In this document: piece by piece, positions 41,068 through 56,814 of the stretch
How the letters are laid out: each line of letters starts with the position of its first letter
Numbering within the stretch: the first letter of the stretch is position 1
From: Pseudomonadota bacterium
GTDB lineage: Bacteria; Pseudomonadota; Gammaproteobacteria; QQUJ01
NCBI GenBank assembly: GCA_008501635.1
Contig: QQUJ01000005.1
Span: 1-64,000 of the forward strand
DNA: 64,000 nucleotides
Reading direction: 5' to 3'
The notes under the pieces: model-generated
What the model was told of the DNA's origin: nothing
The model's database searches: none
Seen by the model: only the letters and a program-made list of their open reading frames with translations
Made by a program: the position numbers and the translations under genes

Positions 41068-42906
41068 ATGGCAAAGGTACAATTTCCCAATCCTCACGAC
41101 GTTGAAACGATTCCGGGGACCGAGGGATGGGAGCGCATGTATCCCTATCAGTATCCGTTCGTTACCGATGATCCGGAACGCAAGGCGTACGAGGAGAACG
41201 CATTCTGGTTCTACGACGGGCTTCACTATCCGGAACCGCTCTATCCCTTCGATACGATCTGGGACGAGGCCTGGTTTCTGGCGCTGTCGCAGTACAACAC
41301 GCGTATCTTCTCTGTTCCGCCGGTGTTCGGTGTCGATCACCGCATGATCAACGGCTATCTGTACATAACGCCTGTGCCGGTCAAAGACCCGGAGGTCATA
41401 CAGTCTCGCATTGCGCATTTCATGGAGCGCGCCGGTTACTACTACGAGAACTGGAATGCGCTGGAGGCGAAGTGGGAACAGAAGATGAAGCAGACCATTG
41501 CGGATCTCGAAGCTTTGGAGATCCCCAAGCTGCCGGAAATGGAAGATTTGAGCGTCGTCAAGGAAGGCCTCGGCGAATCGACCGGGTACAAGCTGCTGAA
41601 GGCGTATGACAACGTCATCGATCTCGGTATCCGGTGCTGGCAGTACCACTTTGAGTTCCTCAACCTCGGGTACGCGGCCTACGTCACCTTCCTCGACTTC
41701 TGTCAGAAGATCTTCCCCGATATCCCGCCACAGCGCGTAACGCAGATGATCTCGGGTATCGACGTGATCATGTACCAGCCTGATGAGGAGCTGAAAAACC
41801 TCGCCCGACGCGCCGTTGATCTGGGCGTGGACGCCGAGGTGCGCAAGGGTACCGACTATGAAGCCCTGAAAGCCTCGTTGGGCGGCAGCGATGCCGGGAA
41901 ACAGTGGTTGGCTGCCTTTGAAAAGGCCCGTTATCCGTGGTTCAACGTATCGACCGGTACCGGCTGGTATCACCACGATCGTTCCTGGAACGATGACCTG
42001 TCTGTTCCGTTGTCTTCGATCGGTATCTACATCGATAAGCTGCATGAAGGCAATTCGCTGGAGCGGCCGATGGAGGCCGTGCAGCAGGAGCGTGATCGCA
42101 TCACGGCGGAGTATCGCAACCTGATCAGCACCGACGAGGATCGCGCAACGTTCGATCAGTTGCTCGGTACCGCCAAGACGGTGTTCCCCTATGTCGAAAA
42201 CCATCTCTTCTACGTCGAGCACTGGTTCCATTCGGTTTTCTGGAACAAGATTCGTGAAGTTGCAGAGATCGTCAAAGAGTTCGGGATCATCGAGGATGTC
42301 GAGGACATCTGGTACCTGAAGCGTGGCGAGATTCGCGATGTGTTGTGGGATGTGGTGACCGCATGGGCGACCAATGTCAAACCGCGCGGCACCTACACCT
42401 GGCCCAAGGAGATCGACTGGCGCCGTGGTGTGATGAAGAAGTTCCAGGAATGGAGTCCGCCTCCGGCCGTCGGACCGGCGCCCGATGTGATACAGGAGCC
42501 GTTCACGGTCGTGCTGTGGGGTGTTACCAACGAGTCGCTCAAGTCGTGGTCCGATATTCAGAATGTAGCCAACCTCGATGACATCGATTCGTTCAAGGGC
42601 TTCCCCGGCAGTCCCGGCAGCGTCGAAGGCAAGGCGCGTGTTTGCCGGACGGTTGCAGATATCGGTCAGCTCGAGGAGGGAGAGATTCTGGTTGCTCCAA
42701 CGACCTCACCGTCCTGGGCCCCGGTTTTCATCAAGATCAAGGCCTGTGTAACCGACGTGGGCGGTGTTATGAGCCATGCCGCTATCGTCTGTCGCGAGTA
42801 CGGGATGCCGGCGATTGTCGGCACCGGTCACGCCACCAAGATCATCAAGACTGGACAGATGCTCAAAGTGAACGGGACGACCGGCGAAGTGACGATCGTA
42901 AAGTAG
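41068..42906 (+). CDS. ppsA: Phenylphosphate synthase subunit PpsA
   Basis: The 612-residue protein corresponds in size and content to PpsA (70 kDa) of Thauera aromatica. The C-terminal 90 residues are the swivelling phosphohistidine domain of PEP-utilising enzymes, with the catalytic H570 in GGVMSHAAIVCRE and the GTTGEVTIV end. The N-terminal 500 residues are the phenol-accepting, PEP-synthase-unrelated part. With PpsB it converts phenol and ATP to phenylphosphate, AMP and phosphate, transferring the beta-phosphoryl group through the histidine. GGAGGAGG precedes ATG 41068. First gene after the sigma-54 promoter. Confidence 0.93.
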   Translation: MAKVQFPNPHDVETIPGTEGWERMYPYQYPFVTDDPERKAYEENAFWFYDGLHYPEPLYPFDTIWDEAWFLALSQYNTRIFSVPPVFGVDHRMINGYLYITPVPVKDPEVIQSRIAHFMERAGYYYENWNALEAKWEQKMKQTIADLEALEIPKLPEMEDLSVVKEGLGESTGYKLLKAYDNVIDLGIRCWQYHFEFLNLGYAAYVTFLDFCQKIFPDIPPQRVTQMISGIDVIMYQPDEELKNLARRAVDLGVDAEVRKGTDYEALKASLGGSDAGKQWLAAFEKARYPWFNVSTGTGWYHHDRSWNDDLSVPLSSIGIYIDKLHEGNSLERPMEAVQQERDRITAEYRNLISTDEDRATFDQLLGTAKTVFPYVENHLFYVEHWFHSVFWNKIREVAEIVKEFGIIEDVEDIWYLKRGEIRDVLWDVVTAWATNVKPRGTYTWPKEIDWRRGVMKKFQEWSPPPAVGPAPDVIQEPFTVVLWGVTNESLKSWSDIQNVANLDDIDSFKGFPGSPGSVEGKARVCRTVADIGQLEEGEILVAPTTSPSWAPVFIKIKACVTDVGGVMSHAAIVCREYGMPAIVGTGHATKIIKTGQMLKVNGTTGEVTIVK

Positions 42907-43009
42907 TGCAAGATACCCTGATACTTGCAGGTTCTTGATGTTCTCCAGTTAGGCAGGTGTTCGGCTGGCTTCGGCCAGCCGGGCTCCGGCCGCCTAGAGG
43001 AAAAGGGTT

Positions 43010-44092
43010 ATGAAGGGAAATGCACCACTGGTTTGTTGGTTTCAAGAGTGCCGAAAAGAGGATGTACCGCTGGTCGGGGGCAAGAACTCATCGTTGGGGG
43101 AACTGATTAACGCCGGTATTCGAGTACCGCCGGGATTCGCCCTGACCACCCACGCCTACCGCCAGTTTATCGAGCAGGGGAAACTCAGCGAAAAGCTGAT
43201 GGGCCTGTGTGACGGCATCGATGACACCGATATGCAGGCGCTGGAGGCCGCTTCCGTAGAAGCGCGTCGGCTTATCGAAGAGACCGATCTGACGTACGAG
43301 TTGGAAGACAGCGTCGCCGAGTACTATCGCAAACTTTCCAATTACTGCTGCATGCCGGCCACGCCTGTTGCCGTTCGTTCCAGCGCTACCGCTGAGGACT
43401 TGCCCGATGCGAGTTTTGCCGGTCAACAGGACACCTATCTCTGGATTCGAGGCGTCGACGATGTGCTGAACCGCGTCAAGACATGCATATCGAGCCTCTA
43501 CACGGCGCGTGCCATTGCGTACAGAAACAAAAACAAGTTCAAACATCATGAGGTGGCTATCAGCGTCGGGATTCAGAAGATGGCCAACTCGTGGACGGCC
43601 GGCGTGATGTTCACACTCAATCCGAGTAACGGTGACCGCTCCAGTATCGTTATCGATTCGAACTTCGGATTTGGTGAATCGGTCGTGTCGGGGGAAGTGA
43701 CACCCGACCAGTTCCTTGTGAACAAGGTGTCGGAAGAGATCATGGCGCGCACGATCTCGTGCAAAGAGGTCTGTTACACCGTCGATCCCATTACCCAAAC
43801 ATCGATACGATCCGAGGTTCCTGCTGAACGCCAGGAGGTTCAGTCATTGCTGGACCACGAAATCGAAGAGTTGGCGCGCATGGGCAAGTTGATCGAGAAG
43901 CACTATGGACGACCCATGGACGTGGAATGGGCCGTTGATAAAACAGTCCCGTCCGGTGGCAACATCTTCATCCTCCAGGCACGCCCCGAGACGGTGTGGA
44001 GTGCCCGCAAAACCGATCCGGTCAGCGGCGGCCGCAAATCGGCCCTCGAGCACATCGTCAACTCGGTGATGACGGGAAAGCGGCTGCAATGA
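43010..44092 (+). CDS. ppsB: Phenylphosphate synthase subunit PpsB
   Basis: PpsB, 360 residues, equals the N-terminal ATP-binding domain of PEP synthase: VGGKNSSLGELINAG (residues 23-37), the RSSATAEDLPDASFAGQQ ATP-grasp block (about residues 123-140) and the DVEWAVD/ILQARPETVW end. It lacks the swivelling and PEP domains, which PpsA supplies in part. It binds ATP and phosphorylates the PpsA histidine. A 103-base gap separates it from ppsA. ATG 43010 follows AGGAAAAGGG. Confidence 0.93.
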   Translation: MKGNAPLVCWFQECRKEDVPLVGGKNSSLGELINAGIRVPPGFALTTHAYRQFIEQGKLSEKLMGLCDGIDDTDMQALEAASVEARRLIEETDLTYELEDSVAEYYRKLSNYCCMPATPVAVRSSATAEDLPDASFAGQQDTYLWIRGVDDVLNRVKTCISSLYTARAIAYRNKNKFKHHEVAISVGIQKMANSWTAGVMFTLNPSNGDRSSIVIDSNFGFGESVVSGEVTPDQFLVNKVSEEIMARTISCKEVCYTVDPITQTSIRSEVPAERQEVQSLLDHEIEELARMGKLIEKHYGRPMDVEWAVDKTVPSGGNIFILQARPETVWSARKTDPVSGGRKSALEHIVNSVMTGKRLQ

Positions 44093-44169
44093 TGAGAGAC
44101 CATCGCTTGCAGGCCCTTGTCAGAAGCAGTGCGTAACAGTCACACAACATAACCAAAAGGATAGCCACC

Positions 44170-45588
44170 ATGGATCTACGAAATTTCATCGACAAATGCG
44201 AGAAAGCCGGCGAACTGGCGCGAGTCAGCGCCGAGGTCGATTGGAATCTCGAGCTTTCGCACATTTCGAAGGTGACCGAAGAGAAGAAGGGACCAGCGCT
44301 GCTGTTCGAGAATATCAAGGGGTATGACTCGCCCGTTTTTACCGGCGCGTTTGCCACCGCAAGTCGTCTGGCGATGTCGGTCAACATGCCGGGTCACTAC
44401 TCGCTTTGCGATTCCGCGCGCGAGTGGATGAACAAGACCATCGATGAACTGATTCCGGCAAAGGAAGTAAAAGAGGGTCCGATACTGGAGAACATTCACT
44501 CCGGTAAAAAAGTGGATCTGAACATGTTTCCGGTGCCGCGGTTTTTCCCCAGGGACGGCGGGCGCTACATCGGTACGGCCACCTTCCTGGCGATTCGTGA
44601 CCCCGACTCCGGGAAAGTCAATCTCGGCACCTATCGCATGCAGATGCTCGATGAAAAACGGTGCGGCGTGCAGATTCTGCCCGGCAAACGCGGCGAACGC
44701 ATCATGAACAAGTACAAGAAAATGGGCAAGAAGATGCCCGCGGCTGCAGTTATCGGTTGCGATCCGTTGATGATGATGGCCGGCGCCCTCCAGCACGAAG
44801 GTGCCCAAAGCCAGTACGACATCATCGGTTCGGTGCGCGGTGCGCCGTCGGAGTACATGCTGGCGCCGATGACGGGATTACCGATTCCGGCGGGGGCAGA
44901 GATCGTGCTCGAGGGAGAGATCGATCCGGAGAACTTCCAACCCGAAGGCCCGTTTGGCGAGTACACCGGGTATTACACCGACGAACTTTACAAGGTGATC
45001 AAAAAACCGTGTCTCGAGGTCAAGCAGATCCTGCACCGCAATAACCCGATTCTGTGGGCGACGTCGGTGGGCCGTCCGGTGACCGATGTGCATATGCTGC
45101 TTTCGTTTACCCGCACCGCGATGTTGTGGAGCGATCTGGCCAAAATGGGAATTCCCGGTATCAAGTCGGTCAATGTGATGCCGGAGTCTGCCGGCCGTTT
45201 CTGGGCGGTGGTTTCCGTAAAGACCATGTATCCCGGTCACTCTTCCCAGGTCGGCCAGGCGGTCATCTCCACCATAACCGGCAGCTACGGAATCAAGGGT
45301 GTCATCGTTGTCGACGAGGACATCGAGGCCGACGATGTGCAGCGCGTCTTCTGGGCGCTGGCGTGTCGTTACGATCCCATGCGCGGTACCGAACTCATCA
45401 AGCGCGGTCGTTCGACGCCTCTTGACCCGGCACTCGATCCCAGCGTCAGCAAACTGATCACCTCCCGGATTCTGCTCGATGCGACCATTCCCTTCGAATG
45501 GGAGGAAAAGCCCGTCGAGGTGGCCCTCGACGAGGCGACCATGGAGAAGATCAATTCGCGTTGGGACGAATACGGAATCAAGCTTTAG
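44170..45588 (+). CDS. ppcB: Phenylphosphate carboxylase UbiD-type subunit (53-kDa class, PpcB)
   Basis: This 472-residue member of the UbiD family has the conserved EGPFGEYTGYY block (about residue 259-269) with the acidic catalytic residue, and binds prenylated FMN in homologues. In Thauera, phenylphosphate carboxylase has two UbiD-type subunits of 54 and 53 kDa; this shorter one is named ppcB by size, and its pairing with ppcD next to it fits reports of ppcB-ppcD in Geobacter. It takes part in the CO2/4-hydroxybenzoate exchange core. The alpha/beta naming could be reversed. ATG 44170 has AAGGA upstream. Confidence 0.87.
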   Translation: MDLRNFIDKCEKAGELARVSAEVDWNLELSHISKVTEEKKGPALLFENIKGYDSPVFTGAFATASRLAMSVNMPGHYSLCDSAREWMNKTIDELIPAKEVKEGPILENIHSGKKVDLNMFPVPRFFPRDGGRYIGTATFLAIRDPDSGKVNLGTYRMQMLDEKRCGVQILPGKRGERIMNKYKKMGKKMPAAAVIGCDPLMMMAGALQHEGAQSQYDIIGSVRGAPSEYMLAPMTGLPIPAGAEIVLEGEIDPENFQPEGPFGEYTGYYTDELYKVIKKPCLEVKQILHRNNPILWATSVGRPVTDVHMLLSFTRTAMLWSDLAKMGIPGIKSVNVMPESAGRFWAVVSVKTMYPGHSSQVGQAVISTITGSYGIKGVIVVDEDIEADDVQRVFWALACRYDPMRGTELIKRGRSTPLDPALDPSVSKLITSRILLDATIPFEWEEKPVEVALDEATMEKINSRWDEYGIKL

Positions 45589-45600
45589 GGGGAATCGGTA

Positions 45601-46110
45601 ATGGAGCAGGCAGAGAATATCAAGCTGGTGATTCTCGATGTCGATGGCGTCATGAGCGACGGCCGCATTGTCATCGACGACAACGGTGTCGAACAGCGCA
45701 ATTTCGACATCAAGGATGGTTTTGGTGTCGTGGCCTTGCAGATGAGCGGCATCGAATGCGCCATCATCACATCAAAAAAATCGGGAGCAGTGCGCCACCG
45801 CGCGCAGGAGTTGAAGATCGCCCGCTTTTATGAAGGTATCAAAAAGAAAACCGAACCCTACGAAGAGATGCTCAAAGACAAAGGCATCGCTGATGCCGAA
45901 GTCTGCTACGTGGGCGACGATCTTGTTGATCTCAAGATGATGAAGCGCGTCGGCCTGCCCGTTGCGGTGGCTGATGCGGTCGACGAAGTGAGAGCGGCGG
46001 CGGTCTATATCACCAAAGCGCGTGGCGGCTACGGTGCCGTGCGCGAAGTGGCCGAGATGATTCTAAAGACGCAAGGTAAGTGGGAAAAGATTCTGGAAAA
46101 GGTTGGCTAA
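45601..46110 (+). CDS. ppcD: Phenylphosphate carboxylase HAD-type subunit PpcD
   Basis: The 169-residue (18-kDa) protein is a HAD hydrolase of the KdsC-like group, with the nucleophile motif LDVDGVMSDG (D13 and D15), a conserved threonine/lysine in ITSKKS and the acidic DDLVDLKMM motif. In the Thauera enzyme the 18-kDa subunit is needed for carboxylation starting from phenylphosphate but not for the exchange reaction, so it probably removes the phosphoryl group and delivers phenolate to the UbiD-type subunits. Here it lies 12 bases after ppcB. Confidence 0.9.
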   Translation: MEQAENIKLVILDVDGVMSDGRIVIDDNGVEQRNFDIKDGFGVVALQMSGIECAIITSKKSGAVRHRAQELKIARFYEGIKKKTEPYEEMLKDKGIADAEVCYVGDDLVDLKMMKRVGLPVAVADAVDEVRAAAVYITKARGGYGAVREVAEMILKTQGKWEKILEKVG

Positions 46111-46137
46111 CGGTATCAGTAACTAGAGGAATCCATT

Positions 46138-47625
46138 GTGAGCACTGTGAGAAAAGAGAAAGCAGTTGGCGCTGATTACGGCGCACCGGACAGCAATCGC
46201 GAGTTCATCGACATGTTGTTGAAGACCGGTGATGCGGTCGCCATCGAGCAGGAGGTCGATTGGGACAACGAGGCAGGGGCGATTGTGCGGCGAGCGTGCG
46301 AGCTGGGCGCGCCTGCCCCCTACATGAAAAAAATCAAGGACTATCCCGGCAACAGCTATTTCGGCGCGCCGCTGTCCACCTACCGGCGGATGGCCGTCTC
46401 ATTGGGCATGTCGCCCGATTCGACACTGCCGGAGATCTCCACGGAGTATCTGCGCCGTACCAACAGCGATCCTATCGAACCGGTGGTGATCGAACGCAGT
46501 GCCGCTCCCTGCAAAGAGAACGTGTGGATGGGCGACGATGTGGACCTCACCAAGCTGCCCGTGCCGCTGGTGCACGAAGGCGACGGTGGCCGCTACATCG
46601 GCACCTGGCATGCGGTAGTGACCAAGCACCCGATTCGCGGGGATTACAACTGGGGCATGTACCGCCAGATGATGTACGACTCGCGCACCATGTGCGGCGC
46701 GGTCTTTCCCTTTTCCGATCTGGGCAAGACGTTGAACGACTACTACCTGCCGCGCGGCGAGGCGATGCCTTTCGCCACCGCCATCGGCTTGTCGCCGCTG
46801 GCCGCCATGGCAGCCTGTGCGCCGTCACCGATTCCGGAGCCTGAGTTGACCGGCATGCTCGGTGGTAAGCCGGTGGAGCTGGTGAAGTGCGAAACCAACG
46901 ACCTGCTGGTGCCGGCCAACGCCGAAATCATTCTCGAAGGCGTGATCACGCCGGACGTGATGGTGGAGGAGGGTCCGTTCGGCGAGTACACCGGTTACCG
47001 CACCTCGCCGCGTATGCCGCGCGTTACCTTCCGCGTCAATTGTGTCACCTTCCGCAACAACGCGACCATGACCATCTCCAACATGGGCGTACCCATGGAC
47101 GAGGGGCAGTTGCTGCGCTCCTTCTCGCTGGGTCTGGAACTGGACAAGCTGCTGCGCAGTCAGGGCATTCCCATCACGGGCGTCTACATGCACCCGCGCT
47201 CCACGCATCACATGATGATCGTCGGCGTGAAGGTGACCTACGCGGGAGTCGCGCAGCAGATCGCGCAGCTCGCCTTCGGCAGCAAGCTGGGGCCGTGGTT
47301 CCACATGGTGATGGTGGTGGATGACAGCATCGATATCTACAACTGGGACGAGGTGTACCACGCCTTCTGTACCCGTTGTAATCCGGAGCGTGACATTCAC
47401 ATCTACAAGAACACCACCGGAACCTCGCTGTACCCGCATGCCAGCCCGCATGAGCGTGCCTATTCGATCGGTTCGAAAGTATCGTTCGACTGCACCTGGC
47501 CGGTGGATTGGCACAAGATCAACGACGTACCGACTACGGTCTCTTTCAAGAACGTCTACCCGCAAGAGATTCAGGATCGCGTAACCAGCAACTGGGAAGC
47601 CTACGGCTACCCACCGGTCAAGTAA
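46138..47625 (+). CDS. ppcA: Phenylphosphate carboxylase UbiD-type subunit (54-kDa class, PpcA)
   Basis: GTG 46138 with AGAGGA 7 bases upstream gives 495 residues, the larger of the two UbiD-type subunits. It has the EGPFGEYTGY block near residue 277 and the NMGVPMDEG and HHMMIVGVKVTYAG segments of the family. It is distinct in sequence from the 472-residue subunit, so the two are old paralogues, not a recent duplication. It should form the prFMN-dependent carboxylating core with PpcB and PpcC. Assignment to alpha is by length only. Confidence 0.87.
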   Translation: MSTVRKEKAVGADYGAPDSNREFIDMLLKTGDAVAIEQEVDWDNEAGAIVRRACELGAPAPYMKKIKDYPGNSYFGAPLSTYRRMAVSLGMSPDSTLPEISTEYLRRTNSDPIEPVVIERSAAPCKENVWMGDDVDLTKLPVPLVHEGDGGRYIGTWHAVVTKHPIRGDYNWGMYRQMMYDSRTMCGAVFPFSDLGKTLNDYYLPRGEAMPFATAIGLSPLAAMAACAPSPIPEPELTGMLGGKPVELVKCETNDLLVPANAEIILEGVITPDVMVEEGPFGEYTGYRTSPRMPRVTFRVNCVTFRNNATMTISNMGVPMDEGQLLRSFSLGLELDKLLRSQGIPITGVYMHPRSTHHMMIVGVKVTYAGVAQQIAQLAFGSKLGPWFHMVMVVDDSIDIYNWDEVYHAFCTRCNPERDIHIYKNTTGTSLYPHASPHERAYSIGSKVSFDCTWPVDWHKINDVPTTVSFKNVYPQEIQDRVTSNWEAYGYPPVK

Positions 47626-47640
47626 TTGAGGAGAAAGCAG

Positions 47641-47895
47641 ATGAATAAGTGGGAAACCTTTGTGATGGAGCTCGACGAACTGCCGGAGGACTGCGATCTC
47701 GAGTTGACCATACGCACGCTCAATGACGGGCTGGACAAGTACACCTATAAGCGCGTCAAGGCGCGGGTGTCGACTGATACCGCCAAGTTCGGCGATTCGC
47801 TGCAGGTTCGCTTCGGTCGCGGTCAATTGGCCAAGGAGCGTTTTTCCATCAATGTGCTGAAGGAGATTCAGCGTTTTCCTGAGAAATATCTCTGA
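47641..47895 (+). CDS. ppcC: Phenylphosphate carboxylase small subunit PpcC
   Basis: ATG 47641, after GAGGAGAAAG, gives 84 residues (about 10 kDa), the size of the gamma subunit of phenylphosphate carboxylase. Sequence includes KWETFVMELDELPEDCDLELTIRT-type acidic start (quoted in parts: KWETFVMEL, DCDLELTIRT) and a beta-rich middle; it has no relatives outside these clusters that I know. It directly follows the 495-residue subunit gene by 15 bases. A TTG at 47626 would extend it by five residues and is less likely. Confidence 0.85.
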   Translation: MNKWETFVMELDELPEDCDLELTIRTLNDGLDKYTYKRVKARVSTDTAKFGDSLQVRFGRGQLAKERFSINVLKEIQRFPEKYL

Positions 47896-47942
47896 AGGAT
47901 AGATAGCGAACAGGGTGCTGAATCCCCCGAGCGTAGACGACA

Positions 47943-49304
47943 ATGGCTTACACGGATTTGCGGCAATTCTTATCCGATCTGGGAACCGATCTGGTACGGG
48001 TGAAAGAGAGTGTCGATCCTCGCTTTGAGGTCGCCGCGGTTCTTAAGGCATTGGGGGATCAGCACCCCGCCGTCATGTTTTCGAACGTGCGGGGTTATGC
48101 GGGCGCCAGCATATGCGGCAACCTGCTGGGCAAGCGCAGTCGCCTGGCCAGAGCATTTGGTACCACGGCCGAAAAGCTTGCGGCGGTCTATCTGGAACGA
48201 AAAGGGCGCGGGATAGCGACGGTCGATTGTCATGGTAAGGCGCCGGTGAAGGAGGTGATCAAGCGGGATCCCGATGACCTTCTCGCACTGTTGCCCATTC
48301 TGACGCACTACGAGAAGGACGCGGCGCCCTTTATCACGTCGGGCGTGGTCCTGGCGAAAGATCCGGCAACCGGACGCCGTGCAATGGGGATACACCGGAT
48401 GATGGTGCACGGAGGTAATCGTCTGGGTGTATTCCTCGCCAATCCTCCCTTGTCTCAATTCCTGGAGAACGCGGAAAAAGAGGGAAAACCACTGGAAGTG
48501 GCGGTAGCCCTTGGCCTGGAGCCTGCCACGTTGGTGGCCGCTGTCGTAAAGGCGGGTTCAACAGGACCGGACAAGCTTGAGATTGCAGGTGCGCTACGCG
48601 ACGAACCTGTGGAGCTGGTGCGCGCGGAATCCGTCGAGATTGATGTTCCGGCGCACGCTGAAATCGTCATCGAGGGGAAAGTACTGCCGGGCGTACGGAT
48701 GAAAGAAGGGCCTTTCGGCGAAAATACCGGTTATTACTTTACCAACGAAAGCCCGGTTATCGAGATTTCCGCCGTCACCCACCGCGATGGTTTCGTCTAT
48801 CCGGGATTGTGTCCCTGGACAGCCGATGTAGATTCCCTGTTGTCACTGGCGGCCGGTACGGAACTGTTGTGGCAGTTGCAACGTCATGTTGGCGCCGTTG
48901 CGGATCTGGAGATGCTCGGTGGGACGATCGGTTTTTCCGCAGTCATCTCCGTGGGCCGCTGTTCAACCAGCGAAGTACGCAGACTGATTCAGTTGGCGTT
49001 GTCTCTGGATAAGCGATTGAAGTCGGTTACCGTCGTTGACGACGATGTGGATATACGTGATCCCCGAGAAGTCGCCTGGGCGATGGCGACTCGCTATCAA
49101 CCGAGCAGGGATACCCTGACAATCGACAGGACCGAACCTTACGTAATCGACCCATCAGCGGTTGCACTCGGCTGCGGTTCGAAAATCGGTTTTGACGCCA
49201 CAAAAGGGACGGGACCAGAGTACGAAAAGGTCGTCATACCCAAGGATGCAAGGTCGCGGGCGCAGACTCTGCTGGCGGGAATCGTTCAGGCGCCGACATG
49301 TTGA
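47943..49304 (+). CDS. Additional UbiD-family (de)carboxylase
   Basis: A 453-residue UbiD-like protein, third in this locus, with the EGPFGENTGYY block near residue 258 and a CSTSEVRRLIQLALSLD segment. Thauera and related phenol clusters also carry an extra UbiD-like gene beside the ppc genes, whose function is unknown. It may decarboxylate or carboxylate a related aromatic acid, or act as a second prFMN-dependent enzyme. Its last 7 bases overlap the DUF120 gene, implying coupled translation. The ribosome site is weak (GAGCG), so the ATG at 47943 is the first in-frame choice and fits the family start. Confidence 0.85.
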   Translation: MAYTDLRQFLSDLGTDLVRVKESVDPRFEVAAVLKALGDQHPAVMFSNVRGYAGASICGNLLGKRSRLARAFGTTAEKLAAVYLERKGRGIATVDCHGKAPVKEVIKRDPDDLLALLPILTHYEKDAAPFITSGVVLAKDPATGRRAMGIHRMMVHGGNRLGVFLANPPLSQFLENAEKEGKPLEVAVALGLEPATLVAAVVKAGSTGPDKLEIAGALRDEPVELVRAESVEIDVPAHAEIVIEGKVLPGVRMKEGPFGENTGYYFTNESPVIEISAVTHRDGFVYPGLCPWTADVDSLLSLAAGTELLWQLQRHVGAVADLEMLGGTIGFSAVISVGRCSTSEVRRLIQLALSLDKRLKSVTVVDDDVDIRDPREVAWAMATRYQPSRDTLTIDRTEPYVIDPSAVALGCGSKIGFDATKGTGPEYEKVVIPKDARSRAQTLLAGIVQAPTC

Positions 49305-49783
49305 CTGTAGAGACCATTCTTCAAGCCGAGACTCTGAGTTTGAGCGGAGTGGTCAGCAGTGGTCTGGGTGAGGGCTGTATGTTCACCAGTCTGCCCTGGG
49401 CGGCCAGCGAGTTCGAGAGGAAACTGGGTTTCATTCCTTACCCGGGAACATTCAACCTGACCATGACCGGCAAAAAGTGGGAACGGGGAAGGAAACGTAT
49501 GCTCACAGAACCGGGTATCGCCATTGAGCCCGCGACCGGATTCTGCGATGCGAAATGCTTTTGGGTCGTGATCGGCGAGCAGGTCGCCGGTGCTGTGGTC
49601 ATCCCGGATATCAGCGAGTATCCCAACGACAAACTGGAGATTCTTTGCCCGGTTCCGGTTCGCAGGACATTGGCCGCGAGTGACGGTCACGAGGTATCGA
49701 TAAAGGTAGCGCTCGACGTAAATCACCGGTGCGATCGGGATGTTCCCCAAGTGGCCAGTGGGGCATTGGGGGGAGGGCAATGA
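49298..49783 (+). CDS. DUF120 CTP-dependent riboflavin kinase-like protein
   Basis: The 161-residue protein matches the archaeal CTP-dependent riboflavin kinase (RibK, DUF120) from end to end: VVSSGLGEG near residue 17, the LGFIPYPGTFNL block (about residues 45-56), AGAVVIPDISEY near 108 and a final VRRTLAASDGHEVSIKV. The same segments occur in Methanocaldococcus RibK as I remember it. Bacteria normally make FMN with the unrelated bifunctional RibF, so a DUF120 gene is unusual in a gammaproteobacterium. It overlaps ubiD-like by 7 bases and nudix by 4 bases, so it belongs to the phenol operon. It probably makes FMN from riboflavin for prenylated-FMN synthesis by UbiX. Activity and nucleotide preference are inference. 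Confidence 0.8.
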   Translation: MLTVETILQAETLSLSGVVSSGLGEGCMFTSLPWAASEFERKLGFIPYPGTFNLTMTGKKWERGRKRMLTEPGIAIEPATGFCDAKCFWVVIGEQVAGAVVIPDISEYPNDKLEILCPVPVRRTLAASDGHEVSIKVALDVNHRCDRDVPQVASGALGGGQ

Positions 49784-50463
49784 GAGACCGGACATCGGAA
49801 TCGGGCGCCGCTCTTCAGACGTGTCAGAAGCCGGCGTATTACCTGAGGGGCGCTCATTTGGCCGGTGGGCCGCAATCCTTTCGCACCCGAATCCGACCCG
49901 GGGGCACCTCTAACTTTGTCGGGCCCAACCGCAAATCGGTTGTGGCGGACTATGCCTCTTGTGCCCAGTGCATGCGTTACAGAAGTGCCGCGCTGCTCGG
50001 CAGACAACCCCCTGGACGGTGCAGTGATTGCGGGTGTTCCCTGACTCGGGAATCGGTCGCCTTGGCACTCATCGAGCACCGCAAGCGATTGGTGCTTATC
50101 AAAAGAACGAAGGCACCACTGGCGGGATATTGGGCACCACCCGCAGGCCATGTGGAGATGGGAGAAACAGTGCCGCAGGCAGTGATCAGGGAAGCGCGGG
50201 AAGAGAGCGGGCTGGAGATAACACTGGATGGAATGGTGGGTATCTATACCGAGCAACGTCTGTCGGGTGCGGACTCGCACATGGTCATCACGGCCTTCAA
50301 CAGCCACTCGGTAAATGGCGATCCCGTGGCCGGAGATGATGCAGGAGACATCGCCCTTTTTGCGCGCGGCAAACTGCCTCAGCAACCGCCGCCCAGGCAG
50401 GGTACAGCAACAGATTACTGGGTCTACGGAGTCATTCAGAGATTGACCGCAAACTGGCGCTAG
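49780..50463 (+). CDS. Zinc-ribbon Nudix hydrolase
   Basis: ATG 49780 overlaps the DUF120 stop (ATGA) and follows GGAGGG. The 227-residue product has a zinc ribbon in its first half, formed by CAQC and CSDC (spacing about 20), then a Nudix box GHVEMGETVPQAVIREAREE that continues ESGLEI, matching GX5EX7REUXEEXGU. Zinc-ribbon Nudix enzymes hydrolyse dinucleotides such as NADH or FAD. The Thauera phenol cluster also includes a MutT/Nudix gene. Two uses fit the locus: splitting FAD to FMN, or converting dimethylallyl diphosphate to the monophosphate needed by UbiX. Start at 49729 would overlap DUF120 by over 50 bases and is rejected. Confidence 0.87.
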   Translation: MRDRTSESGAALQTCQKPAYYLRGAHLAGGPQSFRTRIRPGGTSNFVGPNRKSVVADYASCAQCMRYRSAALLGRQPPGRCSDCGCSLTRESVALALIEHRKRLVLIKRTKAPLAGYWAPPAGHVEMGETVPQAVIREAREESGLEITLDGMVGIYTEQRLSGADSHMVITAFNSHSVNGDPVAGDDAGDIALFARGKLPQQPPPRQGTATDYWVYGVIQRLTANWR

Positions 50464-50507
50464 TCAGCGGCGCCGCAAATTTACTCATGAGACGGAGGGT
50501 TCGAGAC

Positions 50508-50981
50508 GTGAACAATATTACGACCGCTACAGCGCATCCGATTACATCGGAACTGCCGGATGGATTGTTTGATTATCTCAGTGCGGGAGCGTTGAGCATT
50601 GTTATGACCGTTGGTGAGGATGGTTATCCGACTGACGCGTTTACCTGGGCAGCGGCTGTCGACAAAAAGCGCGTTCGGTTTGGCGCCGACCATGGCAGCA
50701 AGACGCTCAAGAATCTGGAGCGCGACGGTCGTGCAGCTGTGCAGATTATCGGACCAGACAATATGGTTTTCCTGGTCAAGGGCAAGTGCCGCCAGATCAA
50801 AGAACGCATTGACGCCGCACTCCCACTGGAGATTTCCATGTGGGAAATGGAGGTCATGGGTGCTCGTGATCAGTCGTGGCCGGGTGCTTCGCCGCTGCCG
50901 TTTGCCGTGCAATGGTCGGGAAAAGACCGTGGAAAACTGGTGCGCATGGAGCAGGACGTGTTTCAGGAGATGCGCAGCTAG
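50508..50981 (+). CDS. FMN-binding split-barrel protein (PNPOx-like)
   Basis: A GTG at 50508 has GGAGGG 8 bases upstream, giving 157 residues. The pattern ALSIVMTVGEDGYPTDAFTWA, followed by a strand ending RVRFGADHGSKTLKNL, is that of the pyridoxamine-phosphate-oxidase-like split barrel, which usually binds FMN. The ATG at 50487 is upstream of the ribosome site. In this locus it may be a flavin carrier or flavin reductase that delivers reduced FMN to UbiX; this is inference from its neighbours. No catalytic motif distinguishes oxidase from reductase. Confidence 0.75.
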   Translation: MNNITTATAHPITSELPDGLFDYLSAGALSIVMTVGEDGYPTDAFTWAAAVDKKRVRFGADHGSKTLKNLERDGRAAVQIIGPDNMVFLVKGKCRQIKERIDAALPLEISMWEMEVMGARDQSWPGASPLPFAVQWSGKDRGKLVRMEQDVFQEMRS

Positions 50982-51004
50982 CAGCGTCGCTAGGGGACAG
51001 ATCC

Positions 51005-52315
51005 GTGTCGGAAAAAACCATGATCTATTTCGATGAGCAGACAGAAACGATGCCACGCGAGCAGCTGCACGAGTTGCAGTTGCGAAAACTCCAGGCGATG
51101 CTGAATGAGTTGTGGGAGAAAAATCTATTCTATACCCGGAAATGGCGAGCCGTAGGTGTAAAGCCTGCTGATATCACATCTTTGGAGCATTTATCCAAAC
51201 TGCCGCTGACGACCAAGCACGAGTTGATGAGCGATCAGGAGCTCAATGGCCCTTTCGGGAACAACCTTACCTATCCCATCGACTCCTATTCCCGGTTCCA
51301 TCAGACATCTGGAACGACCGGTGTACCGTTGAAAGTGCCGGATACCGCTGACGGGTGGAACTGGTGGGGGCGTTGTTGGGGACATGTGCTGGCAGGTGCC
51401 GGGCTGACCTCTTCTGACCGACTCTTCATGGCCTTTTCCTTTGGGCCGTTCGTCGGGTTTTGGGCAGCGGTTGAGGGTGCAAGACAGATAGGCGCGATGA
51501 TGATACCCGGCGGTGGGAGGGATTCCCTCCAACGGCTGGAGCTGATGCGGGATGCCGGAGCGACCGCTTTGGCGTGTACGCCAACCTACGCTTTACGGCT
51601 TGCCGAGGTGGCGCGTGAAACGGGATTCGATCTGAGCAGCATTCCGATCAAAGCAACGGTGCATGCCGGTGAACCAGGTGCAAATGTGCCTTCCACGAAG
51701 CAGAGAATAGAGCAGTTGTGGAATGCCAAGTGTTTCGATCACGCCGGTGCTACCGAGGTGGGGGCGCACTCCTTTGAGTGCTACGCCCAACCGGGAGGCA
51801 CACATCTTATCGAAAGTGAATACATCGCTGAAGTTATTGATCCGGAAACCGGGGATCCCGTGGCACCCGGCGAACGTGGCGAACTGGTGATAACCAATCT
51901 TGGGCGGTTGGGTTACCCGGTCATTCGGTACAGAACGGGAGACGTGGTGCGCGTCAATCTGGATAAGTGTGTGTGCGGGAGAACTTCGCTGCGCTTCGAG
52001 GGCGGGATACTGTGCCGCGCTGATGATATGGTGACGGTACGCGGTGTGAACGTGTATCCAAGCGCCGTCGAGAACATAATCAGAAAGTTCGATGAAGTGG
52101 ATGAGTTTCGGGTGACGGTCAGCAAGCACAAACACATGGACGAGATGCAAGTGGAGATCGAGTTTATCGTGGGTGCGCAACCGGAGATTGCGGAGACTAT
52201 TGCGGAAAGGCTGAGCTCCATGCTGGCGTTTCGCCCCAAGGTGGTTTTGGTGCCGCGTAATACGCTTCCACGCTTCGAGCTGAAAGCAAAGCGTTTTTAC
52301 GTCAATGCGGCGTAA
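51005..52315 (+). CDS. PaaK-like aryl-CoA ligase
   Basis: A GTG at 51005, after AGGGGA, gives 436 residues, the length of phenylacetate-CoA ligases. The ATP-binding loop QTSGTTGVPLK lies at residues about 100-110, with the adenylate motif YRTGDVVRV and the C-terminal catalytic region ending ELKAKRF, containing a lysine. This family activates aromatic acids to CoA thioesters through adenylates in the cytoplasm. As 4-hydroxybenzoate is the product of PpcABCD, 4-hydroxybenzoate-CoA ligation is the most useful reaction here, but PaaK-like enzymes commonly use phenylacetate, so substrate is uncertain. A longer frame from 50876 overlaps the previous gene. Confidence 0.82.
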   Translation: MSEKTMIYFDEQTETMPREQLHELQLRKLQAMLNELWEKNLFYTRKWRAVGVKPADITSLEHLSKLPLTTKHELMSDQELNGPFGNNLTYPIDSYSRFHQTSGTTGVPLKVPDTADGWNWWGRCWGHVLAGAGLTSSDRLFMAFSFGPFVGFWAAVEGARQIGAMMIPGGGRDSLQRLELMRDAGATALACTPTYALRLAEVARETGFDLSSIPIKATVHAGEPGANVPSTKQRIEQLWNAKCFDHAGATEVGAHSFECYAQPGGTHLIESEYIAEVIDPETGDPVAPGERGELVITNLGRLGYPVIRYRTGDVVRVNLDKCVCGRTSLRFEGGILCRADDMVTVRGVNVYPSAVENIIRKFDEVDEFRVTVSKHKHMDEMQVEIEFIVGAQPEIAETIAERLSSMLAFRPKVVLVPRNTLPRFELKAKRFYVNAA

Positions 52316-52339
52316 CCAGAGATTACAGAGGGTATATCG

Positions 52340-53020
52340 ATGAAAGTCACCAACTGGATGCAACCAAATCCAAGAACCATCACCAGCGATGCGCTGGTCA
52401 GTGAGGCGAAACGGATTTTAAGCGAAAACAATTTGCGTGCGCTGCCAGTGGTCGACGACGGAGAACTGCGAGGTCTGATTACGCGCGCGAGCTGTTTGCG
52501 CGCGACTGAATTCGTCACCAGGACGCAGGACGTCAACGAGTTCGACTATCTGGTAAACCGGCTCAAAGTCAAAGACCTCATGGTGCGCCGTCCGGCCACC
52601 GTTAAGGCCACCGATACGATGGAGCATGTGCTGCAAAAGGGACAGACACTGAAAATAGGGCAGTTCCCGGTGCTTGAAGGAGATCAGGTGGTAGGATTGA
52701 TTTCAGCAACCGAAGTGTTCAAATTGGCTGCGATTTTCCTTGGTGTCTTTGAAAAATGGAGCGGAATCACATTGGCTCCTATAGAAATAGAGCCAGGAAC
52801 CGTTGGCCGAATTGCCGCCATCGCCGAGGGCGCTGGCGCAATCGTACACTCGATCTATCCGATTGGTCAGGAAGTTGCTGGTGGTCCGAAGCGAGTCATA
52901 CTTCGGTTTAAATGTACCGCCTGCGAGAAGGTGGATGAAGTGGTATCGGCATTCGAAGGGGCGGGGTATAAAGTACTGGAGTTCGACGCCGAGCTGCAGA
53001 AAAATATCGAGCATGGCTGA
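52340..53020 (+). CDS. ppsC: CBS-domain protein PpsC
   Basis: The 226-residue (24-kDa) product contains two CBS domains (residues about 1-60 and 75-135; landmarks VTNWMQPNPRTITSDALVSEA quoted as MQPNPRTITSDALVSEA, then LKVKDLMVRRPATVKATD) and a C-terminal ACT-like region with LRFKCTACEKVDEV. It corresponds to PpsC of Thauera, which stimulates phenylphosphate synthase several-fold. In most clusters ppsC follows ppsB directly; here it is separated by nine genes. CBS pairs commonly bind adenine nucleotides, so it may sense energy charge. Confidence 0.85.
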   Translation: MKVTNWMQPNPRTITSDALVSEAKRILSENNLRALPVVDDGELRGLITRASCLRATEFVTRTQDVNEFDYLVNRLKVKDLMVRRPATVKATDTMEHVLQKGQTLKIGQFPVLEGDQVVGLISATEVFKLAAIFLGVFEKWSGITLAPIEIEPGTVGRIAAIAEGAGAIVHSIYPIGQEVAGGPKRVILRFKCTACEKVDEVVSAFEGAGYKVLEFDAELQKNIEHG

Positions 53021-53124
53021 CACCGGGGCGAGTTGAATCCGTCTGCCTCGCAACCATAGTCAAGCGATGCGAGAGCATTGCCCGGAACTGATAGATGGAT
53101 TGAGGAGCAAGGAGAACAGCTGAT

Positions 53125-53727
53125 ATGAGTTTGCCCTTGGTCGTAGCAATTACCGGCGCAACCGGTGTCATATATGGCATTGAGGTCTTGAAGGCACTCA
53201 AGGCTGCAAATGTACCCACTCATCTCGTTCTCAGTGAATCGGCGATACGGAACATCACTTTGGAAACGGACTATTCGCTGGATACCGTGCGGTCGCTGGC
53301 AGATCGGGTTCACAACAACAAGGATATAGGCGCCGCGGTTGCCAGTGGTTCATTCCGGGCGCGTGGGATGATTGTGGCCCCCTGCAGCATCAAGACGCTT
53401 TCGGCCGTTGCCAATTCTTTTAACTACAATCTCGTGGTTCGCGCGGCAGATGTGACGCTCAAAGAACGCCGACCATTGGTGTTGATGGTGCGTGAGACTC
53501 CATTGCACAAAGGACATCTCGACCTCATGAGCAAGGTTGCGGATCTCGGCGGCATGATACTTCCGCCTATGCCGGCCTTTTATCACGCGCCTCAGACGAT
53601 CATGGATATCATTCACCAGAGCGTGGGCAAAGCACTGGATCTGGTTGGGGTGGAACATACGCTGTTCGAGCGATGGACAGGCGATATGCCAGGCAAGAAG
53701 TCCATGCCTGTGACCGGTTCCGAGTAA
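53125..53727 (+). CDS. ubiX: UbiX-like flavin prenyltransferase
   Basis: The 200-residue protein has the UbiX start VVAITGATGVIYGIEVL, the middle IVAPCSIKTLSAVANSF and the C-terminal MRETPLHKGHLDLMSKV. Flavin prenyltransferases join reduced FMN and dimethylallyl phosphate to make prenylated FMN, the cofactor of UbiD-family enzymes. Three UbiD-type proteins are encoded here, so a dedicated copy fits; Thauera has one in the same place. ATG 53125 is preceded by AGGAGAACAG. Confidence 0.93.
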   Translation: MSLPLVVAITGATGVIYGIEVLKALKAANVPTHLVLSESAIRNITLETDYSLDTVRSLADRVHNNKDIGAAVASGSFRARGMIVAPCSIKTLSAVANSFNYNLVVRAADVTLKERRPLVLMVRETPLHKGHLDLMSKVADLGGMILPPMPAFYHAPQTIMDIIHQSVGKALDLVGVEHTLFERWTGDMPGKKSMPVTGSE

Positions 53728-53735
53728 GCGCAGAG

Positions 53736-54530
53736 ATGCACCCGCCCGCTCGCGACTGGTGGGTACCCGAAGGCAGCATCATCTACGTCATCGGGGACAT
53801 TCACGGTCGGGTCGATCTGCTCGATGCGCTACTGGAGCGCATTGCTGACGACGAGGGTCAGCGTGGGACGACACAAAGATGCCTGGTGTTTCTGGGTGAC
53901 TATATTGACCGTGGCCCCGCTTCAAGAGAAGTAATTGATCGACTTCTCAATGATCCGCTACCCACCTTCCACAAAGAGTTTTTGCTGGGCAATCACGAAC
54001 AAGTCATGCTGCGCTACCTGAATGGGGATCTGCGGGTGGCGCGTCACTGGCTGCAAAAGGGCGGCTTGCAGGCTGTGAGTTCCTACGGTCTGGATGTTGC
54101 GCTGGAAAATTTGACTGATGACAAAGCTTTGGAATCACTGAGAAAGGCGATTAAACAAGCCATTCCGAATCGGCACATGGATTTTTATCAGCATCTGAAG
54201 TCCAGCCACAGAGAGGGTGATTACTATTTTGCCCATGCGGGAGTATTGCCCGGGGTGCCTTTGGAGCAGCAAACGGTACGAGATCTGGTGTGGATACGTG
54301 GGCGTTTTCATCGTTCTGTTGTCGATCACGGCGTCAGGGTCGTTCATGGTCACGAGGTGGTGCCGAGAGTGGAAGTGCGAACCAACCGGATAGGAATCGA
54401 CACGGGTGCGTATCGCACCGGGGTACTTACCTGCCTCGTGCTGAATGCGAACACGATCCGATTTCTGCAGACAGGTCAGCGGGGTGCTCCTGATTCCGAG
54501 CAAAGTCGGCTCGATCTCAGTTCAGCGTAG
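53736..54530 (+). CDS. PPP-type Ser/Thr protein phosphatase-like protein
   Basis: From ATG 53736 (264 residues) the PPP metal motifs are complete: GDIHG (residues about 22-26), GDYIDRG (about 55-61), GNHE (about 86-89) and the late histidine motifs YFAHAG and VVHGHE. Such bacterial phosphatases remove phosphate from Ser, Thr or Tyr of proteins, or hydrolyse small phosphodiesters. It sits at the end of the phenol operon, 8 bases after ubiX, and its 3' end overlaps the convergent regulator gene by 14 bases. A direct role with phenylphosphate is possible but the motifs favour a protein substrate. Confidence 0.82.
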   Translation: MHPPARDWWVPEGSIIYVIGDIHGRVDLLDALLERIADDEGQRGTTQRCLVFLGDYIDRGPASREVIDRLLNDPLPTFHKEFLLGNHEQVMLRYLNGDLRVARHWLQKGGLQAVSSYGLDVALENLTDDKALESLRKAIKQAIPNRHMDFYQHLKSSHREGDYYFAHAGVLPGVPLEQQTVRDLVWIRGRFHRSVVDHGVRVVHGHEVVPRVEVRTNRIGIDTGAYRTGVLTCLVLNANTIRFLQTGQRGAPDSEQSRLDLSSA

Positions 54531-56304
54531 ATTCCTGGTGTTTTTTCAGTCGATACGCCAGTTGCGGCCGGGTGATTCCCAGCATGCGCGCCGCTCTCGA
54601 CAATTTACCGTCGGCGAGTTCAACGGCTTTTTCCATGAGACGGTGTTCGAAGTCTTCGATTGAAATCCCATCGCTGAGCATGGTTTCCATGACCTCGCTG
54701 ATATCAGATCTGGAGGCAATGGCGGGCGACTGGCGTTGTTCGAGATTTCCGGTGCTGTTGAGTTTGAGCACCATCGAAGCCTGGAGGTCCTCCGGGGCAA
54801 ACAAGTGCGAGAGATCGATTGCCTGGCCGTCTTCAGCGAGGATTACGGCGCGCTCTATGAGATTCTCAAGCTCACGTATATTTCCCGGGAAGTTGTAGTC
54901 ATACAGCGCATCCATTGCTCTGCTGGTGAATCCGGTAACCTCTTTTCCATGGAGGGTTGAGAACTTATCCAGGAAAAAATCCATTAATGGAGGAATGTCC
55001 TCGCGGCGTTCCCGCAGCGGAGGGATTCGAACGGGAAACACATTGAGCCTGAACATCAGGTCATCACGGAATGTGCCTTGGTCGACCGCCTCTTTCAGAT
55101 CGACATTGGTGGCGGCGATGATGCGAACGTTGATCTTTCGAGTGATGGTATCGCCCACGCGCTCGATCTCTTGCTCCTGAATGGAGCGCAGCAGTTTTAT
55201 CTGGGCCGCCATCGTCAACGTTCCGACCTCGTCAAGAAACAACGTTCCGCCGTTGGCACGTTCGAAGCGCCCCGGTCGTGATTGGCTGGCGCCGGTGAAC
55301 GCGCCTTTCTCGACGCCGAAAAGTTCGGACTCGACCAGATTTTCGGGAATGGCCGCACAGTTGACGGCAATAAAAGGTTTGTCGGAGCGTTTGCCCATGC
55401 GATGCAACATCTTGGCAAACATCCCTTTGCCAACGCCTGTTTCACCAAGAAAGAGCACCGTGGCATCGGTGTTGGCCACTTTGCGCAACATTTCGCAGAC
55501 TACGACAAGCCCGGATGAATTCCCGACTATGCCATGAGAAAGCATGGCGCAATCCGCGACATCGTCTCTCGAGCCCGGCGCGGTGCGGGTTTTGGACGCT
55601 TTTCCGCGAGAGAGCGCGTGTGTGCTTCCTTTGTCGAGTCGCAATGCCACCAGTTCTTCTTCGATGTCGTCCCATAGCGGCAATGGTTTTCCGATCATCC
55701 GGCACGACTGACTTCCCGATGCGCGACACTCGATCTCCTTGAACACAACATCCCTGCCCATAAAGGTGCTGATGTAACCGCTAGCGTAACCCACCTGCAT
55801 CCAGCAACTCGGAACGTTCGACAGACCAAAATCAGCGATTTGTGCGTCCGCTTCAAACGATCCGGAAAAGGTGAATTCTCCAAAAAAGGTGCCCTTTTCG
55901 AGATCCGCTTCCAATTGCACCGGTTGCAGGGAGATGACCCCCTGGATAGCGCGGAGCTGCGGCCCGACGAGGAGCGCATCCTTCACACTGCAGTGCGGGC
56001 GGAGCTTGCGGGCCAGCGCGGCATCGCGGCAACCCGATGCGTATCCCATGCGGGCAAGACAACCACGCGCATCCTCGATGCCAAGGTTCTCGATCAATTC
56101 GCGGCGAAGAGTTGTCAGCGTGGAGAGATGGATGAGGGCCACGCGTTGCGTGTCGAGCCAGATCTGTCCATCCCGCAGCGAAAACCGCAGACGTTCGGCC
56201 AAATCACCAATATCCGGCACGTCGGTGGTTTCGAGTGTCTCTGGACCGATCAGGTGTCCGGTGACCGATTTCCAGTCTTTTTTACGTGAGACCTCATCGT
56301 TCAT
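54517..56304 (-). CDS. XylR/DmpR-family sigma-54-dependent aromatic sensor-activator
   Basis: From ATG 56304 the protein is 595 residues. The N-terminal XylR_N/V4R sensor domain covers about residues 20-210, with a zinc site C167, E190, C193, C201 matching the spacing of MopR. The AAA domain has Walker A GETGVGKG near residue 287 and the sigma-54 contact loop GAFTGA. The end carries a Fis-type helix-turn-helix (LSRAARMLGITRPQLAYRL). It should bind the enhancer upstream of ppsA and activate the -24/-12 promoter. The phenol-anchoring His and Trp of MopR/DmpR (H106 and W134) align without gaps to R118 and F146, so the effector pocket differs. Convergent with the operon. Confidence 0.9.
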   Translation of the reverse strand: MNDEVSRKKDWKSVTGHLIGPETLETTDVPDIGDLAERLRFSLRDGQIWLDTQRVALIHLSTLTTLRRELIENLGIEDARGCLARMGYASGCRDAALARKLRPHCSVKDALLVGPQLRAIQGVISLQPVQLEADLEKGTFFGEFTFSGSFEADAQIADFGLSNVPSCWMQVGYASGYISTFMGRDVVFKEIECRASGSQSCRMIGKPLPLWDDIEEELVALRLDKGSTHALSRGKASKTRTAPGSRDDVADCAMLSHGIVGNSSGLVVVCEMLRKVANTDATVLFLGETGVGKGMFAKMLHRMGKRSDKPFIAVNCAAIPENLVESELFGVEKGAFTGASQSRPGRFERANGGTLFLDEVGTLTMAAQIKLLRSIQEQEIERVGDTITRKINVRIIAATNVDLKEAVDQGTFRDDLMFRLNVFPVRIPPLRERREDIPPLMDFFLDKFSTLHGKEVTGFTSRAMDALYDYNFPGNIRELENLIERAVILAEDGQAIDLSHLFAPEDLQASMVLKLNSTGNLEQRQSPAIASRSDISEVMETMLSDGISIEDFEHRLMEKAVELADGKLSRAARMLGITRPQLAYRLKKHQESTLN

Positions 56305-56814
56305 TCGGTTTATCCCCCGCCGCTGTCGGTCCGGAACCATGGCACGGATTTCCAGTTCCCGTTTTTTCCGTTAATACCTGGGTTCACCTCGGTCGTGTCG
56401 AGAAAGGTGGACGTCAAACATTACTGGGTCGATTCTACTCTTGTTCCATTGCGAATGTCAGCGGTGTGCCATCCATTGCTGCCGGCCGGGTATGACAGGT
56501 AATGGAGGCGTGGTGGTTTAGAGGGCGATAGTCCTGCCACCGTCATGCTTCCCGACTTCGATGCCATCGACAACAGGCACCGGGTTTTGCATTTCTGAAG
56601 AACGGAGCGCCGGCGCACGGTGACGGGACGGTTCACGGACAAGCGTAAAGAGGCGATACTAGAACCTGTCTCGAAATCCCGCGACCGGTACAGCTCACAG
56701 GGGATCTTGAGACGGGTTCTACAATTCGGGGGTTGAAAAGCACTCTGCCGGTGCCAAATAAGAGAACGGAACCGTGTACCGGGCGATAACGGTACCGCTC
56801 ACTATGGAACTGCC
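56305..56814. other. Intergenic region with 21-bp inverted repeats
   Basis: No gene is supported. It holds the promoter side of the activator gene and the repeat pair listed next. I saw no clear -24/-12 element for the activator itself, so it is probably transcribed by sigma-70. Confidence 0.5.
56660..56721. repeat. 21-bp inverted repeats resembling IS ends
   Basis: TAGAACCTGTCTCGAAATCC(C) at 56660-56680 and its imperfect complement at 56701-56721 (GGGATCTTGAGACGGGTTCT and a final A) match at 18 of 21 positions. A third copy lies at 59028-59048 in the same orientation as the second. Such sequences resemble terminal inverted repeats of an IS or MITE. No transposase is present between or beside them. 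Confidence 0.75.

Follow-up and report, generated by a model that had tools for sequence, protein, structure and literature searches.

A probable prenylated-FMN supply line with a predicted archaeal-type riboflavin kinase in the tail of a phenol-carboxylation operon

The first 64,000 nucleotides of contig QQUJ01000005.1 (GenBank assembly GCA_008501635.1, a gammaproteobacterium of the GTDB lineage QQUJ01), hereafter the window, contain an operon for the carboxylation of phenol, a route by which bacteria degrade this compound anaerobically, and the tail of this operon probably acts as a local supply line for prenylated flavin mononucleotide (prFMN). A DUF120 protein, which is a predicted archaeal-type riboflavin kinase, would convert riboflavin to FMN, probably with CTP and on top of the housekeeping kinase RibF; FMNH2 would be generated by a reductase, for which the split-barrel protein, where one is present, is a possible candidate; UbiX would prenylate FMNH2, probably with dimethylallyl diphosphate (DMAPP) directly, and the cofactor would be taken up by the UbiD-type subunits PpcA, PpcB and UbiD3. 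A Nudix hydrolase encoded in the same tail would most likely add FMN via cleavage of flavin adenine dinucleotide (FAD) as an optional extra. We infer each catalytic step and the flow between the enzymes from gene identities and gene order, recurrence in two phyla, the fold and motif of the kinase, purifying selection, the redundancy with RibF and a residue in UbiX. The part of the proposal according to which an extra riboflavin kinase would feed FMN to UbiX is well supported by these comparisons.

In a sample of 200 genomes from the GTDB family of Aromatoleum evansii (Rhodocyclaceae), PpcC is encoded in 17 and DUF120 in 21 genomes, and all 17 PpcC genomes share DUF120, with a distance of 0.9–2.3 kb between the two genes in every one of them (Fisher p = 3e-21 for co-occurrence, with genomes treated as independent although they are related). 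Because the genomes are not independent and the stand-alone DUF120 proteins of the operons form one clade (support 100/98), the linkage in this family may be traceable to few events. A genome from a second draw (G932) likewise has a linked DUF120 gene. When named genome contigs were scanned for DUF120, 20 Rhodocyclales loci were obtained, and in those with enough flanking sequence the gene is part either of a ppc operon or of a ubiD3-ubiX-DUF120-Nudix block, which is also the usual order across Rhodocyclales operons and often involves 4-base overlaps. A set of 31 loci contains DUF120 throughout, ubiX in 30 cases (the single locus without it is a cut contig), ubiD3 and the Nudix gene in 29 cases each and the PNPOx-like gene in 15. 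From these counts, and from locus L117, in which ubiX and DUF120 are kept and ubiD3 and Nudix are missing, it is readily seen that ubiX and DUF120 are the constant pair of the operon tail. Absence of conserved linkage in relatives had been named beforehand as a result that would refute the idea of a prFMN module, put forward in a first-pass annotation of the window; linkage was found and the idea was not refuted. Of the two DUF120 genes of Aromatoleum buckelii (L017), the first is located between ppcC and the AMP ligase gene, and the second belongs to a ubiD3-ubiX-DUF120-Nudix-transporter block that stands apart, close to a PheR-like regulator; the block can therefore move as a unit.

DUF120 is otherwise rare, being present in 7 of 369 genomes of the window's class and in 2 of 299 of its phylum. 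We also analysed 178 genomes from a second phylum, probably Desulfobacterota, to which the metagenome-assembled genome behind locus L051 belongs. DUF120 occurs in 16 of these genomes, and in 11 of the 16 it is located beside ubiX, ubiD or pps (L164, L166–L172, L175/L176, L177 and L178), while a random gene is expected within 3 kb of ubiX, ubiD or pps in a few percent of cases by our own rough estimate. At seven loci (L164, L166, L168, L169, L170, L172 and L177), a ubiX gene on the same strand is only 8–147 bases away. The linked DUF120 proteins of the second phylum are about 28–40% identical to that of the window, and linked DUF120 proteins sit on several branches of the tree, with well-supported forks that force at least four changes. 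Since they are spread in this way, the linkage would either have arisen several times or be old and often lost, and both histories would point to function. At L167, a PNPOx gene and then a DUF120-HAD fusion directly follow ppsB, and at L178 a Flavin_Reduct gene (PF01613, 4.8e-21) followed by DUF120-HAD occupies the same slot by ppsB. The wider proposition is that of a previously undescribed, recurrently assembled cofactor cassette, and we regard it as evenly balanced. In at least two phyla, bacteria would have coupled UbiX to an archaeal-type riboflavin kinase, either on its own or fused to HAD, in some cases together with a split-barrel protein or flavin reductase and a Nudix hydrolase that cleaves FAD; prFMN for the carboxylases of anaerobic aromatic metabolism would then be made where it is needed, starting from riboflavin (and FAD). 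Two further loci deserve mention. At L010:9377-12092, from a gammaproteobacterium, a UbiD-family gene is followed after 31 bases by a HAD-DUF120 gene in the same orientation, away from any phenol operon, and a DUF120 contig of a 'Deltaproteobacteria' metagenome-assembled genome (L037:698-1102) has archaeal-looking neighbours, groups near a Bathyarchaeota sequence and may be a misbinned archaeal contig.

The DUF120 protein of the window (49298-49783, forward strand; PF01982 2.7e-29) consists of 161 residues with one Pfam domain and scores 102 bits (cut-off 25), with positions 1–121 of the 121 domain positions matched. Its nucleotide/Mg motif GxGE...PGTxN comprises Gly22, Gly24, Glu25 and Pro49-Gly50-Thr51-x-Asn53, and GTxN is conserved in all orthologues; we take Thr and Asn of this motif to have a role in the archaeal riboflavin kinase MJ0056. 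A structure model of the window protein (pLDDT, the predicted local distance difference test score, 83.7) matched RbkR (5TRD) with Z 18.0 and the CDP and FMN complex of MJ0056 (2VBV) with Z 16.1 and a root-mean-square deviation of 2.4 over 127 residues, and the next unrelated structure followed at Z 6.2. The protein is thus predicted to have the cradle-loop barrel fold of MJ0056, and kinase activity and the use of CTP are likewise predicted from family membership. Pairwise ratios of nonsynonymous to synonymous substitution rates (dN/dS) are about 0.15–0.33 for DUF120, 0.07–0.36 for Nudix and 0.12–0.35 for PNPOx, and all three operon genes are under purifying selection. RibF is also encoded in all 11 DUF120-bearing genomes tested, which means that DUF120 would be a second kinase beside it and FMN would not depend on DUF120 alone. 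Taken together, linkage in two phyla, fold, GTxN motif and a separate RibF strengthen the earlier suggestion of an operon-borne, FMN-forming kinase. In bacteria, DUF120 frequently occurs as a fusion with a HAD phosphatase domain, which may stand on either side (L009, L010, L011, L012, L118, L119, L121, L123, L167, L173, L174, L177 and L178), HAD-DUF120 being the order in L010–L012 and DUF120-HAD that in the others. An apparent DUF120-Nudix fusion at L018 was rejected, as a TGA codon separates both genes.

The role of the Nudix hydrolase is the point on which the most serious alternative turns. It assumes the same supply line, with the Nudix protein hydrolysing DMAPP to dimethylallyl monophosphate (DMAP) for UbiX; we consider it possible, at the level of roughly one chance in several. 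Escherichia coli has four Nudix enzymes, NudB, NudF, NudI and NudJ, that convert DMAPP to DMAP in vitro, a reaction that has been proposed to feed prFMN synthesis (PMC12359138, citing Wang 2018), and the Nudix gene adjoins DUF120 in 29 of the 31 Rhodocyclales operons. Against this stands the UbiX protein itself. In DMAP-specific PaUbiX, Phe181 appears to block the β-phosphate of DMAPP, DMAPP-specific AnUbiX has Gln at that site, and O157 UbiX, with His, accepts both substrates (Marshall et al., PMC6541611). The window UbiX (53125-53727, forward strand), which aligns without gaps around residue 165 to fungal PAD1 (6QLG) and 1SBZ, has Gln165 where PaUbiX has F181 and AnUbiX has Q203. All 31 Rhodocyclales-type operon UbiX proteins, window included, have Gln there; further UbiX copies of such genomes show His, Gln or, in the two most divergent ones, Phe, and the nine read from the second phylum have Gln in five and His in four cases and never Phe. 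Because the operon UbiX carries Gln and not Phe, it is suggestive that it can use DMAPP, in which case no DMAP-making Nudix would be needed.

The Nudix sequences also argue against formation of DMAP. The window protein (49780-50463, forward strand; PF00293 2.8e-16) has a complete Nudix box GHVEMGETVPQAVIREAREESGL and the ribbon cysteines C61, C64, C81 and C84 (CxxC-x(n)-CxxC). The zinc-ribbon family PF14803 was matched by 11 of 12 Nudix sequences, the window protein itself falling below threshold; among solved structures the orthologues are closest to 3CNG, a protein without an assigned function (PMC5389931), and they also match NADH pyrophosphatases over ribbon and Nudix domains. With AtNUDX23, a FAD pyrophosphatase, there is a Nudix precedent for the conversion of FAD to FMN (PMC9678776). 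Our best guess, held with moderate confidence, is that the operon Nudix cleaves FAD to FMN. Of the two activities originally envisaged for it, the formation of DMAP is therefore weakened by Gln in UbiX, and the alternative of FMN from FAD fits better. The split-barrel protein (50487-50981, forward strand; PF01243 5e-6, marginally below the Pfam cut-off, and TIGR03618 5e-8) yielded a structure model with a pLDDT of 63, and Foldseek matched this weak model to split-barrel FMN, F420 and heme proteins (2q9k, 7.7e-7). That a Flavin_Reduct gene occupies the PNPOx slot in L178 suggests, without proving it, that the split-barrel protein may be a flavin reductase. Azoarcus sp. KH32C carries a PNPOx-family gene of another kind (27% identity to that of the window) behind the phenol regulator on the far side of the operon (L015:1883-2347). 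Within the operon itself, a PNPOx gene is absent from KH32C and Aromatoleum evansii and present in A. anaerobium.

A second alternative, somewhat less probable and in our view rather unlikely, holds that DUF120 and Nudix have a part in general flavin homeostasis or in flavin-dependent regulation of the operon instead of prFMN supply. The nearest structure, RbkR, is that of a combined riboflavin kinase and DNA-binding regulator, and many bacterial DUF120 proteins are HAD-fused, reminiscent of the plant FMN hydrolase/riboflavin kinase AtFMN/FHy (PMC9678776). However, the window DUF120 lacks a DNA-binding domain, and the genes are located within ubiX-ubiD clusters in two phyla. Less probable still, and clearly doubtful, is a switch of substrate, with DUF120 phosphorylating another compound linked to the cluster, for instance an aromatic alcohol, or prenol to give DMAP. 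The substrate is not readable from the sequence and the operon DUF120 clade is separate and well supported, but the riboflavin kinase motifs are kept and divergent DUF120 proteins on other branches are equally linked; moreover, Pps already phosphorylates phenol and UbiX is apparently of the DMAPP type. That DUF120, Nudix and PNPOx are mere passengers drifting with the operon, or linked by chance, as the variable gene order and the coming and going of Nudix and PNPOx might suggest, was rejected as highly improbable in view of the 17/17 co-occurrence, dN/dS values well below 1 and the recurrence in a second phylum.

Several observations weigh against a prFMN supply line or parts of it. As RibF is present, an extra source of FMN is not strictly required. 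In Rhodocyclaceae, the remaining 4 of the 21 DUF120 genomes have DUF120-HAD fusions without UbiD nearby, 5 of the 16 DUF120 genomes of the second phylum show no linkage, and neither ubiX nor ubiD was found near DUF120 in any of the 39 archaeal loci examined. The Nudix gene is missing from L117, L129 and L138, the linked loci in the second phylum yielded no operon-type Nudix, and Nudix is dispensable; PNPOx is missing from half of the Rhodocyclales operons, and the low pLDDT of the PNPOx-like model limits what can be drawn from it. Finally, the F181Q exchange in PaUbiX did not lead to a gain of DMAPP use, and specificity is not determined by this residue on its own (PMC6541611).

The genes of the window operon are co-directional on the forward strand from ppsA through a phosphoesterase gene (41068 to 54530), with intergenic gaps of at most about 105 bases from ppcC onward. 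The run starts with the phenylphosphate synthase genes ppsA (41068-42906; PEP-utilising domain, NF006152, with a KH32C orthologue that adjoins ppsB) and ppsB (43010-44092; PPDK_N, identified by profile search). These are followed by the phenylphosphate carboxylase genes ppcB (beta, UbiD family; 44170-45588; TIGR02724, 831 bits), ppcD (delta, HAD; 45601-46110; TIGR02726), ppcA (alpha, UbiD family; 46138-47625; TIGR02723, 968 bits; 80% identity to KH32C PpcA) and ppcC (gamma; 47641-47895; PF09662, 4.3e-37), the products of which all exceed curated cut-offs in one cluster. The third UbiD-family gene, ubiD3 (47943-49304; TIGR00148, 299 bits, above cut-off; 66% identity to the KH32C orthologue), encodes conserved R152, E255 and E260, presumably the active-site R and E-E of UbiD enzymes. 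It overlaps DUF120 by 7 bases (49298-49304), and DUF120 overlaps Nudix by 4 bases (ATGA, 49780-49783), just as described in the first-pass annotation. The Nudix ATG is closely preceded by a GGGAGG motif; the first ~55 residues of the protein are unmatched in orthologues, and because of this N-terminal excess the start is uncertain. Profile searches recovered every gene previously named between ppcC and ubiX, and the families had been assigned correctly, but a gene for a PaaK-like AMP-dependent aryl-CoA ligase between PNPOx and ppsC had been overlooked (51020-52315; its KH32C orthologue is in the same operon). The run continues with ppsC for a CBS-domain protein (52340-53020; PF00571 and gene order), ubiX, and a calcineurin-like phosphoesterase gene (53736-54530; PF00149) that is often the last gene of related operons. 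Convergent with the operon, a PheR-like sigma-54 activator is encoded on the reverse strand (54517-56340; orthologue of the KH32C regulator). No sigma-54 −24/−12 consensus was detected in the vicinity of ppsA, and the window as a whole has one match, which is no more than expected by chance.

This gene order is atypical, as ubiX directly precedes DUF120 and ppsC follows ppsB in nearly all related operons. The ubiX gene is displaced in the window, where it lies behind ppsC, and also in L124, where it lies further downstream. Compared with the ubiX usually present in the operon, that of the window has only about 60% identity; it has a motif in common with the displaced ubiX of L124, and its identity to the second ubiX of G372, which adjoins another UbiD gene (L146), is higher (69%). 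It looks as if the original ubiX of the operon had been replaced by another copy. Only one UbiX was detected in the window genome (search at E 1e-10), so it must also serve other UbiD enzymes, if such exist, and the term 'dedicated' used for the module is too strong for this component. The window genome is the only member of its family in the sample, no genome of the class sample is marked as belonging to the same order, and the lineage appears to be deep-branching. Overall, the earlier observation is confirmed and its interpretation partly supported.

Active UbiD enzymes are hard to obtain, and it has been concluded that unlocking the UbiD family needs more than co-expression of UbiX (PMC10865409). 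As a conserved and probably FMN-raising protein encoded beside UbiX, DUF120 is a candidate for co-expression when active phenylphosphate carboxylase or related CO2-fixing enzymes are desired. The reading as a supply line also offers testable answers to the questions of why bacteria with RibF retain an archaeal-type kinase and where UbiX obtains its FMN.

A claim that no such operon had been described holds only in part. Plasmid pAZKH of Azoarcus sp. KH32C carries the same operon genes in the order ppcC-ubiD3-ubiX-DUF120-NUDIX-AMP ligase, annotated without a role for DUF120 and NUDIX, and differs from the window, in which ubiX and ppsC are at the end and a PNPOx gene is inside. The phenol operon of Thauera aromatica comprises pps and ppc plus open reading frames (ORFs) 7–14, with ORF8 resembling UbiX and ORF14 resembling phenylacetate-CoA ligase (PMC6114531), a likeness that rests on published ORF descriptions and not on sequence. 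The gene set has thus been sequenced before, and its functional reading seems to be undescribed: a literature search, outside of which most subscription papers lay, returned no paper that joins phenylphosphate carboxylase with riboflavin kinase or MutT, or prFMN and UbiX with riboflavin kinase, and the name DUF120 came up in one paper, on T4-like phages. MJ0056 and RbkR share with the window DUF120 the fold, the GxGE and GTxN motifs and the full-length domain match, whereas window-type DUF120 is bacterial, has RibF alongside, resides in a ubiX/ubiD operon without a DNA-binding domain and forms a clade apart from archaeal sequences. In the plant pair AtFMN/FHy and AtNUDX23, the kinase of the former is, we presume, of the RibF and not the DUF120 type. 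The pair shows the same types of flavin reaction, with a HAD-associated kinase and FAD cleavage by a Nudix enzyme (PMC9678776), and differs in having no linkage to UbiX. LpdD-type helpers of UbiX-UbiD systems, finally, are similar in being accessory genes for supply or maturation of the UbiD cofactor; LpdD binds prFMNH2 (PMC10865409), whereas DUF120 is a predicted FMN-forming kinase that would act before UbiX.

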